Source of the DNA: Alphaproteobacteria bacterium
GTDB lineage: Bacteria; Pseudomonadota; Alphaproteobacteria; RF32; CAG-239
NCBI GenBank assembly: GCA_017467515.1
Contig: JAFUSU010000032.1
Span: forward strand, 1-64,000
Reading direction: 5' to 3'
Length of the DNA stretch: 64,000 bases
The notes under the pieces are model-generated. The model searched no databases, was not told the DNA's origin, and saw only the letters and a list, made by a program, of their open reading frames with translations. Shown piece after piece: positions 104 through 6,186 of this stretch (positions are counted from its first letter, which is position 1; every line of letters starts with the position of its first letter). The position numbers were made by a program, and so were the translations under genes.

Positions 104-1186
104 CTATTTGGGCACACACCGCATTGTATCATAATTAATTTTATAACCATCTTTACATGCGGTTGGACGCCAGTATTGCGTACCAGTATGACTATTCGGA
201 CCACTGTATTTATAGCAACCCTCAAATGAGTTAGCGTTAGAGTCTTTTGATGTTGACCAACCTTTAGATGACGGACAATAACCGGAATCATAGTTGTTAT
301 ACGTAAAGCATAATCCAGCTGTTGTTGAATAGGTGTATTGATAGGAAAGGGAAGTATATCCAGATATACAGGAATGACAGTAATACAACATTGTACTCCC
401 TGATTGACATGAGGAATAAGTGTCTTGATTTACACAATGAGGATCACTCTTAGAAGTTAACTTATATTTTTCTGTATTTCCTGCACCGCCATGGTATGTT
501 ACATTTCCTGTAGTTTCATCAATAAAGTAGCTATTGGTAAAATAACAAGGATTAACTGTACATGATTCTATATAGGATGTACGCTTCCCACCTTGCATAG
601 CATACTTAGAAACTATATAACCAGATTCACAAGCCGTACATCTATATTTTGTCGTATTACCAGATTTGCAAGAATTATAAGAAGAAGATGAACAATGAGC
701 AACCGGAGCAGATAAAGTATAACCATCACAAGGATTAACAACACAATTAGCAGTTACATCTGAGTCAGAGGTGGCAGAAAGATATGGTGTAAGAAAACTT
801 TCAAAGTTCAGGTTATTTACCAATACCACATTTGAGGATGAGGTTGGGCTTGAGCTTGAGCTTGTAATTACTTGATTTTCTGATATATAGCCGTCCTCAC
901 ATCCTGTCCTTTTATACTTTCCGTTTGAACATTGCTCACAGAGTGCATGAGAGGGGCAAGAATCTAATGTGTAAGATGAACAATCTTCAGCGCAAAATAC
1001 TTTACTCTGATCAAACGGACATTTAAGAGTTGCAACACCAGAGCTACAAGAAGTTCCCGTATATCCCAACTCCTCACAAGTCGGGACTTTGGTACAAGAC
1101 TGCGCCTTGACGTTTATTGTAAAGGAGAAAGTCATCACCAACAGGCTTGCCCCTATCATCATTCTGTTTGTTATAGTCGTTCTCAT
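104..1186 (-). CDS. Secreted cysteine-rich repeat protein (360 aa)
   Basis: No function can be assigned. Residues 1-28 form a typical signal peptide ending in VKAQS, so the product is probably exported. The mature part has about 30 cysteines in loosely repeated units of the form SC.SG.T..Y.C.AC..GY, the last two elements spaced like CxxCxxGY. A serine-rich linker (about 112-122) separates the first unit from the rest. The start has a good SD site (AAGGAG). It resembles the two genes downstream in sequence order (1440 and 2505) in motif but not in detail. Disulfide-rich surface or secreted proteins of this kind occur in families in gut-associated alphaproteobacteria, from general knowledge. 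Adhesin or surface-layer roles are guesses. Confidence 0.75.
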   Translation of the reverse strand: MRTTITNRMMIGASLLVMTFSFTINVKAQSCTKVPTCEELGYTGTSCSSGVATLKCPFDQSKVFCAEDCSSYTLDSCPSHALCEQCSNGKYKRTGCEDGYISENQVITSSSSSPTSSSNVVLVNNLNFESFLTPYLSATSDSDVTANCVVNPCDGYTLSAPVAHCSSSSYNSCKSGNTTKYRCTACESGYIVSKYAMQGGKRTSYIESCTVNPCYFTNSYFIDETTGNVTYHGGAGNTEKYKLTSKSDPHCVNQDTYSSCQSGSTMLYYCHSCISGYTSLSYQYTYSTTAGLCFTYNNYDSGYCPSSKGWSTSKDSNANSFEGCYKYSGPNSHTGTQYWRPTACKDGYKINYDTMRCVPK

Positions 1187-1243
1187 TTTCTTTCTCCTTT
1201 TTTAGGTTAATAATTGTTGTTTTTATAACATTGTTTCCTTCTA

Positions 1244-1323
1244 TTCCCTCCCTGTTTGAGGGAGGGTTAGGGAGGGTTCGATTATTATACTACCCCTCCT
1301 AACCTCCCCTCAAACAGGGGAGG
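1244..1323. repeat. Imperfect inverted repeat, MITE/REP-like
   Basis: Two 33-base arms (1244-1276 and about 1292-1324) are inverted copies with six mismatches in three swapped pairs, separated by about 15 bases rich in A/T. Each arm is itself a small palindrome (CCCTCCC, TGTTTGA, GGGAGGG). The G/C composition contrasts with the AT-rich flanks. It lies in the 254-base gap between two cysteine-rich genes and has no T-run making it an obvious terminator. Confidence 0.65.
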
Positions 1324-1350
1324 AATAAAGGCTCCTTTGTTCTCGATGGA

Positions 1351-1372
1351 TACTCGTGTCGGAGCACGAGTA
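1351..1372. repeat. Short palindrome TACTCGTG/CACGAGTA
   Basis: A perfect 8-bp stem (1351-1358 with 1365-1372) encloses a 6-base loop. The core CTCGTGTC..G(G/A)GCACGAG is the same as the inner hairpin at 40-56, so at least two copies flank the first cysteine-rich gene. It looks like a dispersed intergenic repeat. Confidence 0.55.
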
Positions 1373-1439
1373 TGACAAGGAGAGAAGAGACCTAAGTATG
1401 GCATAATAATTCTTTTTTTATTTTGCTCAGTTCCCTCCG

Positions 1440-2477
1440 TTAATTAGTCTTAATCAGGCAACGAAAGGCCGGACATAAGTAAATATTAACCGAACCACTC
1501 GGGCAAACAATAGCTGAACAGGCACCACTTGTACCAACTTCATATCCGTTATTACATGCTAAACATTTATGGTAAAACTCCGTACCGGCCATTTGAGTGC
1601 TGATACTTGTACAATTCGAAAAACATGTTGTACCGGTTGAATAGCCGGTATCGGCTTTTTTAGCGCTACACGCTGTACCGGTGCTGTTTAACTCATACCC
1701 CGGAGCACAGGTTTTACATTTATAACATATGTTCGCACCGGTTTTCGTTACGGACTCATAAACGACACAATGCTCTATCATTGTTGTCGTTGTACCACAT
1801 GAATTTTCCGAGCAGGTAAACTCTGATGTAAGAGTCCACCCCTCTTTACATTTTTTACATTTATAACAAAGATTATCACCCGCTTTATCAGTATCAACCT
1901 CGGTACAATTCGGCGTAATGGAAGTTTTGTAATCTCTACCGCATGACTTTTCCTTGCATACGCCGGTGCTCGTGTCTAATTCATAACCTGTTTCACATGC
2001 TGTGCATTTATATTTGTAGCTGTCTCCCGTCTTGCAACTTTTAACGCCATTACAATGTTGCCCGGAACTTACTGAATGAGGAAAACCGTTACAATCAACC
2101 GCATCACAACTACAACCATTACGCACCCAACCTGTGCGACAACTCGTGTAACAATAACGCGTTCCTTTTGAACCGCAATCCTTTGTCACATATGTTCCTG
2201 CATTTTTATTGATTGTTGTTAATGTAAATGTACTTGCACATGTATCCGCATCTATACATTCACCACCAACTTTTTCCTGACCACTTGGACAGTCTTGCGT
2301 TTTGTCTGTTCCATCATTCAAGATAAATCTTACTCCCGCCAGTTTTTGGTATGTTCCAATTTCGTTGGAGATTTGTTTATCATTCAATTCTAAACTGTTA
2401 CCAAAAGAATATGCCTGCACTTCATGCCCGCACAGCATTATTCCCATCAAACAGCATAAAGTATATATTTCTCTCAT
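1440..2477 (-). CDS. Secreted cysteine-rich repeat protein (345 aa), paralogue of the next gene
   Basis: Unknown function. The ATG at 2477 is preferred because GGAGG lies 6 bases upstream; an in-frame TTG a few codons earlier overlaps the SD. Residues 1-22 form a signal peptide (ending EVQA). A leading domain with CPSGQEKVGGECID and a CYTSC/GCSC cluster is shared with the gene at 2505. Then come about four units of 43-47 residues following the pattern C...HC..(Y/V)..(K/T)TG.N.CYKC.(T/K)C..G(Y/W).L....C. The C-terminus ends partway into a unit (VCPSG then a short unrelated tail), which suggests truncation or recombination. It sits 27 bases after the paralogue and is probably co-transcribed with it. 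Confidence 0.75.
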   Translation of the reverse strand: MREIYTLCCLMGIMLCGHEVQAYSFGNSLELNDKQISNEIGTYQKLAGVRFILNDGTDKTQDCPSGQEKVGGECIDADTCASTFTLTTINKNAGTYVTKDCGSKGTRYCYTSCRTGWVRNGCSCDAVDCNGFPHSVSSGQHCNGVKSCKTGDSYKYKCTACETGYELDTSTGVCKEKSCGRDYKTSITPNCTEVDTDKAGDNLCYKCKKCKEGWTLTSEFTCSENSCGTTTTMIEHCVVYESVTKTGANICYKCKTCAPGYELNSTGTACSAKKADTGYSTGTTCFSNCTSISTQMAGTEFYHKCLACNNGYEVGTSGACSAIVCPSGSVNIYLCPAFRCLIKTN

Positions 2478-2504
2478 AATAACCTCCAATTTAATAAATC
2501 TCGG

Positions 2505-3515
2505 CTAATTACTACATTTGTAACAGAAATTTGTTCCTGCTTTGGTAACTGATACTGCCGGGCAATTCTGAACAGTTGAAAAACTCGTTGAACTACCTGT
2601 CGGACACGAATTCGCCGTACAAGTTGTATGGCCATCATTTAATGAATAACCGAGTTCACATGCCGTGCACTCGTAACATAAATCTGTACCAGTCCGTGTG
2701 ATCGTGTGTTTGATACAATTTGTTATTGATGATGTTTTATAATTACATGTATTCACCGTACAGGTATGTGTATTCGATAATGTCCATCCATCTTCACACC
2801 CCGTACAATCATAACAATAACCCTCTCCTGCCTTACCTGCCACTATCGCCGTACAATGAGCGGTTACAGATGTCGCATACATCGTACTGTAGTCACTACA
2901 ATTTTTCGCTATACACATATTATTATTCAATTTATATCCCAATGCACATGACGTACATTTATATTTGTAGGTATCTCCCGTTTTGCAACTCTTTAACCCA
3001 TTACAGTTTTGATTTTTATTTGTTAAGAGCGGATATTCTGAGCAATCAACTGGTGTACAAGAACAACCACTATGCGTCCATCCTGATTGACAGCTTGTAT
3101 AACAATACCTTATTCCCTTGGAACCGCAGTTCTTGGTCACATAAGAACCGATTTTACTGCTGACCGAGGTTAACGGAAATGAAGTATTACAAGCCGCAAC
3201 ATCTATACAAATGCCGTCCACTTTCGTTTGTCCTGTCGGACAACTCGTTTCTTTAATCGGCATTGAATCTAAATCATCGCCGCTCGCATCGGAATTAATG
3301 GTTGACTTTTTTGAGATAAAACTAACTGCCGCATATTTTTGATATGAGGATTTTGGCCCAGCTGAAGGTTTGGTTTTGGTTTGGTATTCTATAAGGAGGT
3401 TGGTGCCTGAATCATTATAGATTATATTTGCCTTTGCAATTTTGGTCAGAAAAAACATTCCCGGACCATATAGCAATATAACTACCGCATACAGCAAATA
3501 ATCTTTAGTTTTCAT
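2505..3515 (-). CDS. Cysteine-rich repeat protein (336 aa), paralogue of the previous gene
   Basis: Unknown function. The N-terminus has a hydrophobic segment (about residues 8-29) that acts as a signal peptide or anchor. Residues 80-150 match the leading domain of the 1440-2477 product (CPTGQTKVDGICID, then TKNCGSKGIRYCYTSCQSGW). Cysteine repeats of about 45 residues follow (C..YKTSSI.NC....., CYEC.ACE.GYSL). The protein stops abruptly inside a repeat at CYKCSN, exactly where the expected C..GY.L half should continue, and the next gene's SD begins a few bases later. GGAGGG lies upstream of the ATG. It is probably the first gene of a two-gene unit. Confidence 0.75.
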   Translation of the reverse strand: MKTKDYLLYAVVILLYGPGMFFLTKIAKANIIYNDSGTNLLIEYQTKTKPSAGPKSSYQKYAAVSFISKKSTINSDASGDDLDSMPIKETSCPTGQTKVDGICIDVAACNTSFPLTSVSSKIGSYVTKNCGSKGIRYCYTSCQSGWTHSGCSCTPVDCSEYPLLTNKNQNCNGLKSCKTGDTYKYKCTSCALGYKLNNNMCIAKNCSDYSTMYATSVTAHCTAIVAGKAGEGYCYDCTGCEDGWTLSNTHTCTVNTCNYKTSSITNCIKHTITRTGTDLCYECTACELGYSLNDGHTTCTANSCPTGSSTSFSTVQNCPAVSVTKAGTNFCYKCSN

Positions 3516-3619
3516 ATTGCACCCTCCAGATAGGCTGAGCCAAAATCTAGATTCATTCTATCATATCGAATCCATTGTGTCAAGCTATTTTGAAGGTGTT
3601 TGTTATTTTTCCTCTATAC

Positions 3620-3659: not shown

Positions 3660-6035
3660 TTAATTTGTCAAAATAGGTTGGATATTATCCGCCCCCGTAA
3701 GAGGTATCGGTAATGGATGAAGATCTCCGTTTAAGGCTATTTTTAAAACCTCAGAAACATAAGATACAGGAATAATTTTCAACCCTTCTTTCACATTATC
3801 AGGAATCTCAGCCAAATCCTTTGTATTTTCTTCAGGAATCATTACTGTCTTAATTCCCCCTCTCAAAGCAGATAAAAGTTTCTCCTTTAATCCGCCGATC
3901 GGGAGTACCCTGCCCTGCAATGTTATTTCACCGGTCATAGCAACATCTTTCCTTACCGGAATCTTCGTCAAAACAGAAACCAACGTGGTATACATCGCAA
4001 TACCGGCTGACGGTCCGTCTTTAGGTGTAGCGCCTTCCGGAACATGGATGTGAATATCCGTTTTATCAAACACTTCCGGATCTATACCTAATTCTCGAGA
4101 GTGAGATCTTACAACAGAATAAGCTGTTTCAATGGATTCTTTCATAACATCACCGAGCTTACCCGTTTGTTTAACGATTCCCTTTCCGGGCATATCAACG
4201 GCTTCAATGAATAAAATATCTCCACCGACCTCTGTCCACGCCAAACCTGTTGTAACACCGACATGATCCTGTTTTTCGGCAACCCCGTAGTGAAATTTTT
4301 TAACACCGAGATATCTCTCAATATTACTATCATCAACCGTTAACTTGAGATCTTTTGTTTCTGAAATCAGAATATCTTTAATTGCTTTACGTGCTATTGT
4401 TGCCAATTCTCGCTCTAAATTACGAACACCGGCTTCTCGCGTATAATATCTGATAACATCACGAATAGCCTCATCAGTAATATAAAGTTCGGTCGGTTTA
4501 ACGGCATTTTCTTCAAAAATCTTAGGAATTAAATGCCGCTTAGCGATTTCAATTTTTTCATCTTCAGTATAACCGGATAAACGGATAATCTCCATTCTAT
4601 CCAATAACGGTCTTGGCATATCCAAAGAATTTGCCGTTGTAACAAACATAACATCAGATAAATCATAATCAACTTCAAGATAATGATCACTGAATGTCGC
4701 ATTCTGCTCCGGATCCAAAACCTCTAATAAAGCAGAACTAGGATCTCCGCGCCAATCATTCCCCAGCTTATCAATTTCATCAAGTAAAAACAACGGATTA
4801 GATGTTCCGGCTTTTTTCATTCCTTTAATAATCTTACCCGGCATAGACCCTATATATGTCCGTCTGTGCCCTCTGATTTCCGCCTCATCTCGCATACCAC
4901 CGAGAGAGGCTCTGACAAAATGACGACCGGTTGCTTTGGCTATAGAACGTCCCAAAGAGGTCTTACCGACACCCGGAGGACCAACCAAACATAAAATAGG
5001 TCCTTTAACCTTATCGGCACGTGCTTGAACAGCCAAATATTCAACAATACGTTCTTTCACTTTTTCAAGCCCGTAATGATCGGCTTCCAAAACTTCCATA
5101 GCCTTGGCAAGATTTTTATTAACTTTAGAGGTCTTTTTCCACGGAATATCCAGCATCCAATCCAAATAATTACGAATCACTGTCGCTTCCGAAGACATAG
5201 CACTCATAGACTTGAGTTTCTTAACTTCAGCAACGGCTTTTTCTCTTGCTTCTTTAGATAGCTTTGTTTTTTCTATCTTAGCCATATACTCAGAAATTTC
5301 ATCTCCGTCTTCGCCTTCATTCAGTTCTTTCTGAATAGCTTTCATCTGCTCATTGAGATAGTATTCTTTTTGGCTTTTTTCCATTTGCTTTTTAACACGG
5401 TTTTTAATTTTATTTTCAACCTCTAACAGAGTAATTTCCGCATTCATAAAGCTCAAAATTTTTTCAAAACGATCTTCTAATGTCTTTCCTTCAAGCAATG
5501 CTTGTTTGTCTGCAATTTTCAAGGCCAAGTGAGAAGCTATCGTATCAACAAGTTTTCCGTATTCTTCAACTTGGTTAACCGAAACCAAAACCTCAGGAGG
5601 AATTTTTCGTGAGAGCTTAACATATTCCTCAAACTGAGAAACAACAGCTCTTGCCATAGCCTCCATTTCCGTCGTATGTGTTTCATCTTGCGGCATTATT
5701 TCCACAGCAGCGGCTAAATATTCAGGAGTGGAGGCAAATTTTTTAATTTTAACTCTCTCAACCCCCTCTATCAAAACTTTAACCGTTCCGTCAGGCAATT
5801 TAAGTAATTGCAGAATTGTCCCTAAGGTTCCTACCGTATAAATATCCTCTTCGGTCGGATCTTCTACCGCTGCATCTTTTTGCGTTAACAAAATAATACT
5901 CTGTCCGTTATCCACAACACTTTGCAGTGCTTGAATCGATTTTTCCCGTCCAACAAACAACGGAACAATCATTTTCGGATAAACCACAATATCTCGCAAT
6001 GGTAGAATAGGATATACTTTTGTTTTAGCAACCAT
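3660..6035 (-). CDS. lon: ATP-dependent protease Lon
   Basis: Cytoplasmic AAA+ serine protease that degrades misfolded and regulatory proteins. The full 791-residue architecture is present: N-terminal substrate-binding domain (1-200), coiled-coil segment (about 205-290), AAA+ module with Walker A GPPGVGKT at 352-359 and Walker B LFLLDEIDK near 415-423, and a C-terminal protease domain with the catalytic Ser676 (DGPSAG) and Lys719 (GGLKEKLL) dyad. Length is normal for LonA. The ATG at 6035 is chosen because AAGGTG lies 6 bases upstream; the open frame extends nine codons further without a better site. It is transcribed alone, divergent from fliN and followed by its own terminator. lon is normally next to clpX; here it is 13 kb away. 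Confidence 0.97.
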   Translation of the reverse strand: MVAKTKVYPILPLRDIVVYPKMIVPLFVGREKSIQALQSVVDNGQSIILLTQKDAAVEDPTEEDIYTVGTLGTILQLLKLPDGTVKVLIEGVERVKIKKFASTPEYLAAAVEIMPQDETHTTEMEAMARAVVSQFEEYVKLSRKIPPEVLVSVNQVEEYGKLVDTIASHLALKIADKQALLEGKTLEDRFEKILSFMNAEITLLEVENKIKNRVKKQMEKSQKEYYLNEQMKAIQKELNEGEDGDEISEYMAKIEKTKLSKEAREKAVAEVKKLKSMSAMSSEATVIRNYLDWMLDIPWKKTSKVNKNLAKAMEVLEADHYGLEKVKERIVEYLAVQARADKVKGPILCLVGPPGVGKTSLGRSIAKATGRHFVRASLGGMRDEAEIRGHRRTYIGSMPGKIIKGMKKAGTSNPLFLLDEIDKLGNDWRGDPSSALLEVLDPEQNATFSDHYLEVDYDLSDVMFVTTANSLDMPRPLLDRMEIIRLSGYTEDEKIEIAKRHLIPKIFEENAVKPTELYITDEAIRDVIRYYTREAGVRNLERELATIARKAIKDILISETKDLKLTVDDSNIERYLGVKKFHYGVAEKQDHVGVTTGLAWTEVGGDILFIEAVDMPGKGIVKQTGKLGDVMKESIETAYSVVRSHSRELGIDPEVFDKTDIHIHVPEGATPKDGPSAGIAMYTTLVSVLTKIPVRKDVAMTGEITLQGRVLPIGGLKEKLLSALRGGIKTVMIPEENTKDLAEIPDNVKEGLKIIPVSYVSEVLKIALNGDLHPLPIPLTGADNIQPILTN

Positions 6036-6186
6036 ATTTTTCACCTTAATTTCAAACAACAACAGTTACTATATAGGAAATCTTCTGATATTCTGCAATA
6101 GACCATTCCTAAAATTATGTTTTTTTTTATTCTCTCGCAACAATAAATCAAGTAATCCACAATAGAAGAAGAAAATATGTGGAACA

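Follow-up and report, generated by a model that had tools for sequence, protein, structure and literature searches.

The window, a stretch of 64,000 nucleotides of alphaproteobacterial DNA, carries three adjacent open reading frames on its minus strand, g3 (2505-3515), g2 (1440-2477) and gN (104-1186). Each of the encoded proteins contains 27-37 cysteines (7.5-10.7% of residues), and the motif CxxCxxG[YW] occurs three times in g3, four times in g2 and twice in gN as compared to means of 0.01-0.02 in shuffled sequences. The N-termini resemble Sec-type signal peptides, which end, as judged by eye, in AKA, VQA and VKA, respectively. The initial annotation of three adjacent genes for exported cysteine-rich proteins was thus confirmed. 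Its assignment of all three to a shared family holds for g2 and g3, which are paralogues with 44% overall identity and five collinear units, but not for gN, which possesses its own leader domain, shows only distant likeness to the other two and belongs to a different family. The later units of g2 and g3 comprise approximately 47-50 residues with six cysteines apiece. For g2, the most likely start codon is ATG 2477 rather than TTG 2489. Signal peptides and architecture suggest a surface location; neither a membrane anchor nor a surface export signal was identified. Features of the locus are as follows:

3538..3583, minus strand: promoter TTGACA-N17-TAGAAT and 5'-UTR motif TTTTGGCTCAG, with 14 copies in the genome
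3328..3608, minus strand: repeated 5' block of promoter, 5'-UTR, Shine-Dalgarno sequence, signal peptide and first ~62 codons
2505..3515, minus strand: g3, mosaic gene for an exported cysteine-rich protein of 336 aa with leading domain and repeat units, the last unit cut mid-way
3323..3330, minus strand: recombination breakpoint in g3 (maximum chi-square; CDS nt 185-192, codons 62-64)
3130..3290, minus strand: segment of g3 near-identical to C10R (99%) and C34L (96%)
2478..2513, minus strand: g3/g2 junction, ...TGTAGTAATTAG, 17 nt, GGAGG, ATG of g2
1440..2477, minus strand: g2, complete collinear paralogue of 345 aa with five units and conserved C-terminal tail
1247..1336, no strand assigned: palindromic element in the g2/gN spacer and in the first/second-gene spacers at C22, C9 and C16, absent at C18
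104..1186, minus strand: gN, member of the second-gene family with signal peptide, 6-Cys leader domain and Cys-rich C-terminus

No Pfam family scored over cut-off in the repeat proteins of the window, and the Pfam search found no Lcl_C domain in g2, g3 or gN. Structure prediction, which had been proposed for the repeat unit, was partly informative. It delivered a model of beta-hairpin units (pLDDT 64 overall, about 80 in the repeats) but no significant fold match in the PDB. The nearest structures found by Foldseek were rods of EGF, furin and TNFR type, headed by Pfs25, RSPO furin domains and DcR3, with a best E-value of 5e-3 and all E-values above 0.001 for this model of pLDDT 64. The search for sequence relatives in the PDB gave no credible match.

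Ends of the paralogues and mosaic structure of g3

As described initially, the protein encoded at 2505 halts at CYKC in the middle of a unit, and the next Shine-Dalgarno sequence follows after 17 nt and the next ATG after 27 nt. The stop codon lies two residues past CYKC within the second half of unit 5, which holds only four of the six unit cysteines, and the tail is absent. In the alignment of both paralogues g2 extends 40 residues beyond the equivalent point. Its C-terminus CPSGSVNIYLCPAFRCLIKTN is the counterpart of CPTGQINIYTYWCSDDWRCLMPGG at the loci C22, C9, C16 and C18. Because the tail matches those at four other loci, the end of g2 is normal, and only g3, rather than two genes as previously suggested, is truncated.

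Recombination between repeats had been put forward as the origin of the g3 break. Neither a repeat nor homologous sequence is present at the g3/g2 junction, and a comparison of this junction with other loci revealed no homology. No promoter of its own was seen upstream of g2; a remnant of the family promoter leader was also considered for this region, with similarity past the Shine-Dalgarno sequence at chance level (p=0.32). The two genes appear to be an old tandem duplicate pair, of which g3 is most plausibly the truncated copy. It would have lost the last half unit and the tail, in the simplest case through a deletion that reached to a point just before g2, and may be non-functional.

Alternatively, g3 could be short by nature, as the first gene in an operon of three, and end at a normal family end. 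We regard this as unlikely, even though the reading frame ends cleanly with the next Shine-Dalgarno sequence immediately behind it, the mature protein contains an even number of cysteines (n=30), and ends vary among the members, with Lcl_C in C5 and C14R and another end in C23L. Against it, g3 is collinear with g2 into unit 5 and stops there with an incomplete set of cysteines and no tail, and no other complete member ends at this position.

In contrast to its 3'-end, g3 carries a demonstrable swap in its 5' part. Up to codon 62 it is 98-100% identical to C22R and 92-100% to C25R in the coding segments covered, whereas codons ~75-128 match C10R at 98-100% and C34L at 96% identity, two paralogues with N-termini different from that of g3. 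The bodies of g3, C34L and C10R share 96-99% identity as opposed to 34-60% in their N-terminal coding regions, so that one body type is joined to three different N-termini. The breakpoint detected by the maximum chi-square method was significant for five donor pairs (permutation p<=0.0005). By comparison of these sequences the swap maps near codon 63 to the conserved YQKYAAV...FI region, away from the CYKC break. Assembly errors near repeats could affect some of the junctions. The sharp breakpoint of this mosaic gene, together with two loci at which sister species have an empty site, bears out the proposal of a recombining family.

Dispersal of the cassette

The genome of the window (G000; 1.67 Mb, 36 contigs, 96.9% complete) yielded 33 matches with g3 as query and further copies of the second-gene family. 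Family loci were read as stretches of this assembly, and those read share a recurring order of promoter, Cys-rich first gene, spacer and second gene. The second gene encodes an N-terminal 6-Cys leader, which is in most cases combined with Lcl_C at the C-terminus; at C5, C14R and C29 Lcl_C is fused to the Cys-rich protein. The pattern TTGACA-N17-TAnnnT followed by TTTTGGnT matched 14 times in this genome and the reversed control pattern not at all. Among the other genomes searched it was present once in G003, before a homologue of the first gene, and in roe deer contigs. Identity of the 5' block between loci of the same type is about 89-98%, and homology breaks off sharply at 3608-3611, ~95 bp before the ATG. 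The proposed expansion agrees with the presence of at least 14 promoter copies. A literature search on Cys-rich repeat families of RF32-type alphaproteobacteria returned nothing relevant.

The spacer that separates first and second gene shows 81-98% identity from locus to locus as compared to 54-80% in the Lcl_C coding part. The palindromic element of ~90 bp located in it is MITE-like with GGGAGG/CCTCCC sequences, for which an Rfam search resulted in sub-threshold hairpin matches only. REP-like palindromes of another type (CTCGTG..CACGAG) adjoin cassettes.

By our count, 18 of the 72 contig ends of this genome lie inside family loci. This accumulation is probably caused by near-identical DNA breaking the assembly. 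A third N-terminal type is found at the left ends of C19 and C6 (positions 1-265 of stretches L042 and L041, respectively); these copies are 99% identical and both are cut by the contig end. An active switch for phase or antigenic variation, in place of slow conversion between paralogues, might likewise produce near-identical 5' blocks and contig ends, and indeed 10 of the 14 promoters are no more than ~700 bp away from a contig end, with a similar break position in many cases. Such a switch seems improbable, since every locus has its own promoter and there is thus no single expression site, ordinary repeat collapse explains the contig ends, and neither a recombinase nor an inverted-repeat site was identified in the genome stretches read. 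Moreover, two roe deer contigs that share the same flank and both end in the cassette are identical over their overlap and provide no alternative joins.

Two loci give information on the spread of cassettes. The C5 cassette is inserted between ampG and an SDR gene, which in both G002 and G005 are separated by ~20 bp, and the C14R cassette between yqgE and secA, which are adjacent in G003, G004 and G006. Because sister species have empty sites at these two loci, cassettes probably spread within the lineage of the window species. Some relatives may lack a cassette because it was lost from the site, but two independent empty sites common to several relatives argue for gain. In G002 the 3'-end of lon abuts C9b without a cassette, whereas in G000 C9b lies by the C9 cassette and lpxA, and lon by the cassette of the window. 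This arrangement suggests either a rearrangement through cassettes or an assembly chimera. The 3' neighbours of the lon region (3660-6062 in the window) are an HU gene in G004 and G006, C9b/nhaD-like in G002, and the cassette in G000.

A roe deer rumen contig binned in another genus (RGIG4925) has a 5' block 98% identical to C22L. Movement of cassettes between genera by horizontal transfer, to which this identity and the only 71% identity of the lon gene of that MAG to ours would point, is very improbable and largely refuted, as the malQ region of the contig is 79% identical to that of the same-genus genomes G002 and G005 and the MAG holds further, diverged malQ-like matches at 69%, which a mis-binned contig fits better. 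Judged by these sequences the contig most likely comes from a sister lineage and was mis-binned, and the small-genome organism of the window probably derives from an animal gut or rumen. In G056 (RGIG4925; probably the same as G143), the contigs C51 and C230 match each other at 100% identity over 2.8 kb or more, and both seem to have been mis-binned from another genus.

Leader domain and retroelements in relatives

The leader domain of gN (977-1099) contains six cysteines and is also found in Lcl_C genes. In gN, as in C18n, the C-terminus is Cys-rich where other second genes have Lcl_C. The domain occurs in 75 of the 136 genomes tested and in 13 of the 16 genera of the bacterial family, with at least 54 matches each in G113, G115 and G117 (genomes of ~1.5 Mb; 40-residue query), and Pfam and NCBIfam searches identified no model for it. 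PF07603 gave up to 23 matches per genome.

In the same-genus relatives G003 (C34), G004 (C40) and G006 (C48) an Lcl_C gene is located beside an Avd-like gene, an A-rich template repeat (TR) and a reverse transcriptase (RT) gene, the components of a diversity-generating retroelement (DGR). For G003, Pfam matches to PF00078 (RVT_1) and PF22296 (bAvd) were obtained, and the DGR-adjacent Lcl_C genes of G003 and G006 carry the gN-type leader. Almost all mismatches between TR and variable repeat (VR) concern adenines: 19 of 44 A versus 2 of 73 non-A positions in G003, 20/48 versus 2/69 in G004, and 16/44 versus 4/70 in G006. Remote VR-like copies on other contigs of G003 and G004 have the same A bias and more drift. 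From this sequence pattern the second-gene family is a DGR target in same-genus relatives. The same RT type was found with 63-75% identity in other genera (G007, G012, G015, G016, G022 and G029). The related-genus DGR of G015 (C105; L133, 463-1479) contains a 261-bp unit four times in tandem, with a separate TR in every unit (95% matches, different A-tract lengths). Such a tandem TR array seems unusual and is maybe an assembly error.

A cognate RT was not found in the 96.9% complete assembly of G000, in which two RT matches reached 30-31% only. One of these, on C21 (76997-77305), belongs to a prophage-like DGR with an Avd-like ORF, a VR (WWLSSPAS..) and a different TR; the second distant RT is located on C17 (4533-4832). 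Derivation of Lcl_C 3'-ends in G000 from a sister-species TR was considered and rejected: there was one weak alignment, with changes at 32 of 48 A and 31 of 69 non-A positions.

Proposed mechanism and relation to known systems

The explanation that we consider probable is a dispersed two-gene cassette that diversified by spread and recombination, with g3 as a truncated copy and the second gene hypermutated by DGRs in sister species. The window would represent one copy, with a strong promoter, an exported Cys-rich rod protein and an exported protein with the 6-Cys leader. Both proteins most likely function outside the cytoplasm and form a paired module for binding or adhesion, as their architecture suggests. 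The disulfide-rich hairpin rods probably present the second protein or form a pair with it, and the variable part would bind partners, e.g. host glycans, other microbes or phages. In the window species diversification probably proceeds via duplication into new intergenic sites and via exchange between copies at conserved blocks, by homologous recombination or gene conversion. This would result in one promoter and signal region with different bodies and, as found for g3, one body with different N-termini. In sister species the second gene ends in a C-type-lectin-like Lcl_C domain hypermutated by the DGR. A tentative and rather doubtful extension is a genus-level two-gene recognition system, in which cassette recombination varies the Cys-rich partner and the DGR varies the Lcl_C partner, while the window species lost or never gained the DGR and relies on recombination and cassette spread.

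These findings point to a large family of exported proteins in a bacterial family of small-genome alphaproteobacteria, with a leader for which neither Pfam nor NCBIfam has a model. Sister species seem to follow two diversification routes, DGR hypermutation and recombination of promoter-bearing cassettes, and offer a natural comparison of how these routes replace each other. The results also suggest why such genomes fragment at family loci, by which the variation would be largely hidden in current assemblies.

Several known systems share features with this family. EGF, furin and TNFR rods resemble the first-gene proteins in their recurring small beta-hairpin units with many CxxC cysteines, but a significant structural match or a Pfam family over cut-off is lacking. 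With the collagen-like adhesin Lcl of Legionella, relatives of the window proteins have the C-terminal Lcl_C domain in common; in contrast, no collagen-repeat model matched, and the NCBIfam Lcl model was far below cut-off. Antigenic variation by gene conversion from silent cassettes is known from Neisseria pilE/pilS and Anaplasma msp2, where exported paralogues likewise become mosaic through conversion tracts between constant blocks. Those systems have one expressed copy and promoterless donors, whereas the family studied here has at least 14 copies with their own promoter and no single expression site.

The second gene has a parallel in DGR target families. TvpA of Treponema denticola is a multi-target DGR variable-protein family with a C-type lectin fold (PMC4891356), and DUF1566/Lcl_C proteins are given as DGR targets in human microbiomes in two further studies (PMC4159848, PMC6642488). 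Dispersed exported paralogues are a common trait, and the same-genus genomes share the Lcl_C C-terminal VR, RT, Avd and A-rich TR with these families. Differences are that g2 and g3 of the window have neither Lcl_C nor a VR, gN possesses the leader without Lcl_C, and the genome has no cognate RT. The consulted parts of these three sources describe neither pairing of the target with a Cys-rich first gene nor recombination of such a first gene. Multi-target DGRs and DUF1566/Lcl_C targets are already known, and the DGRs of the relatives add a member to them.
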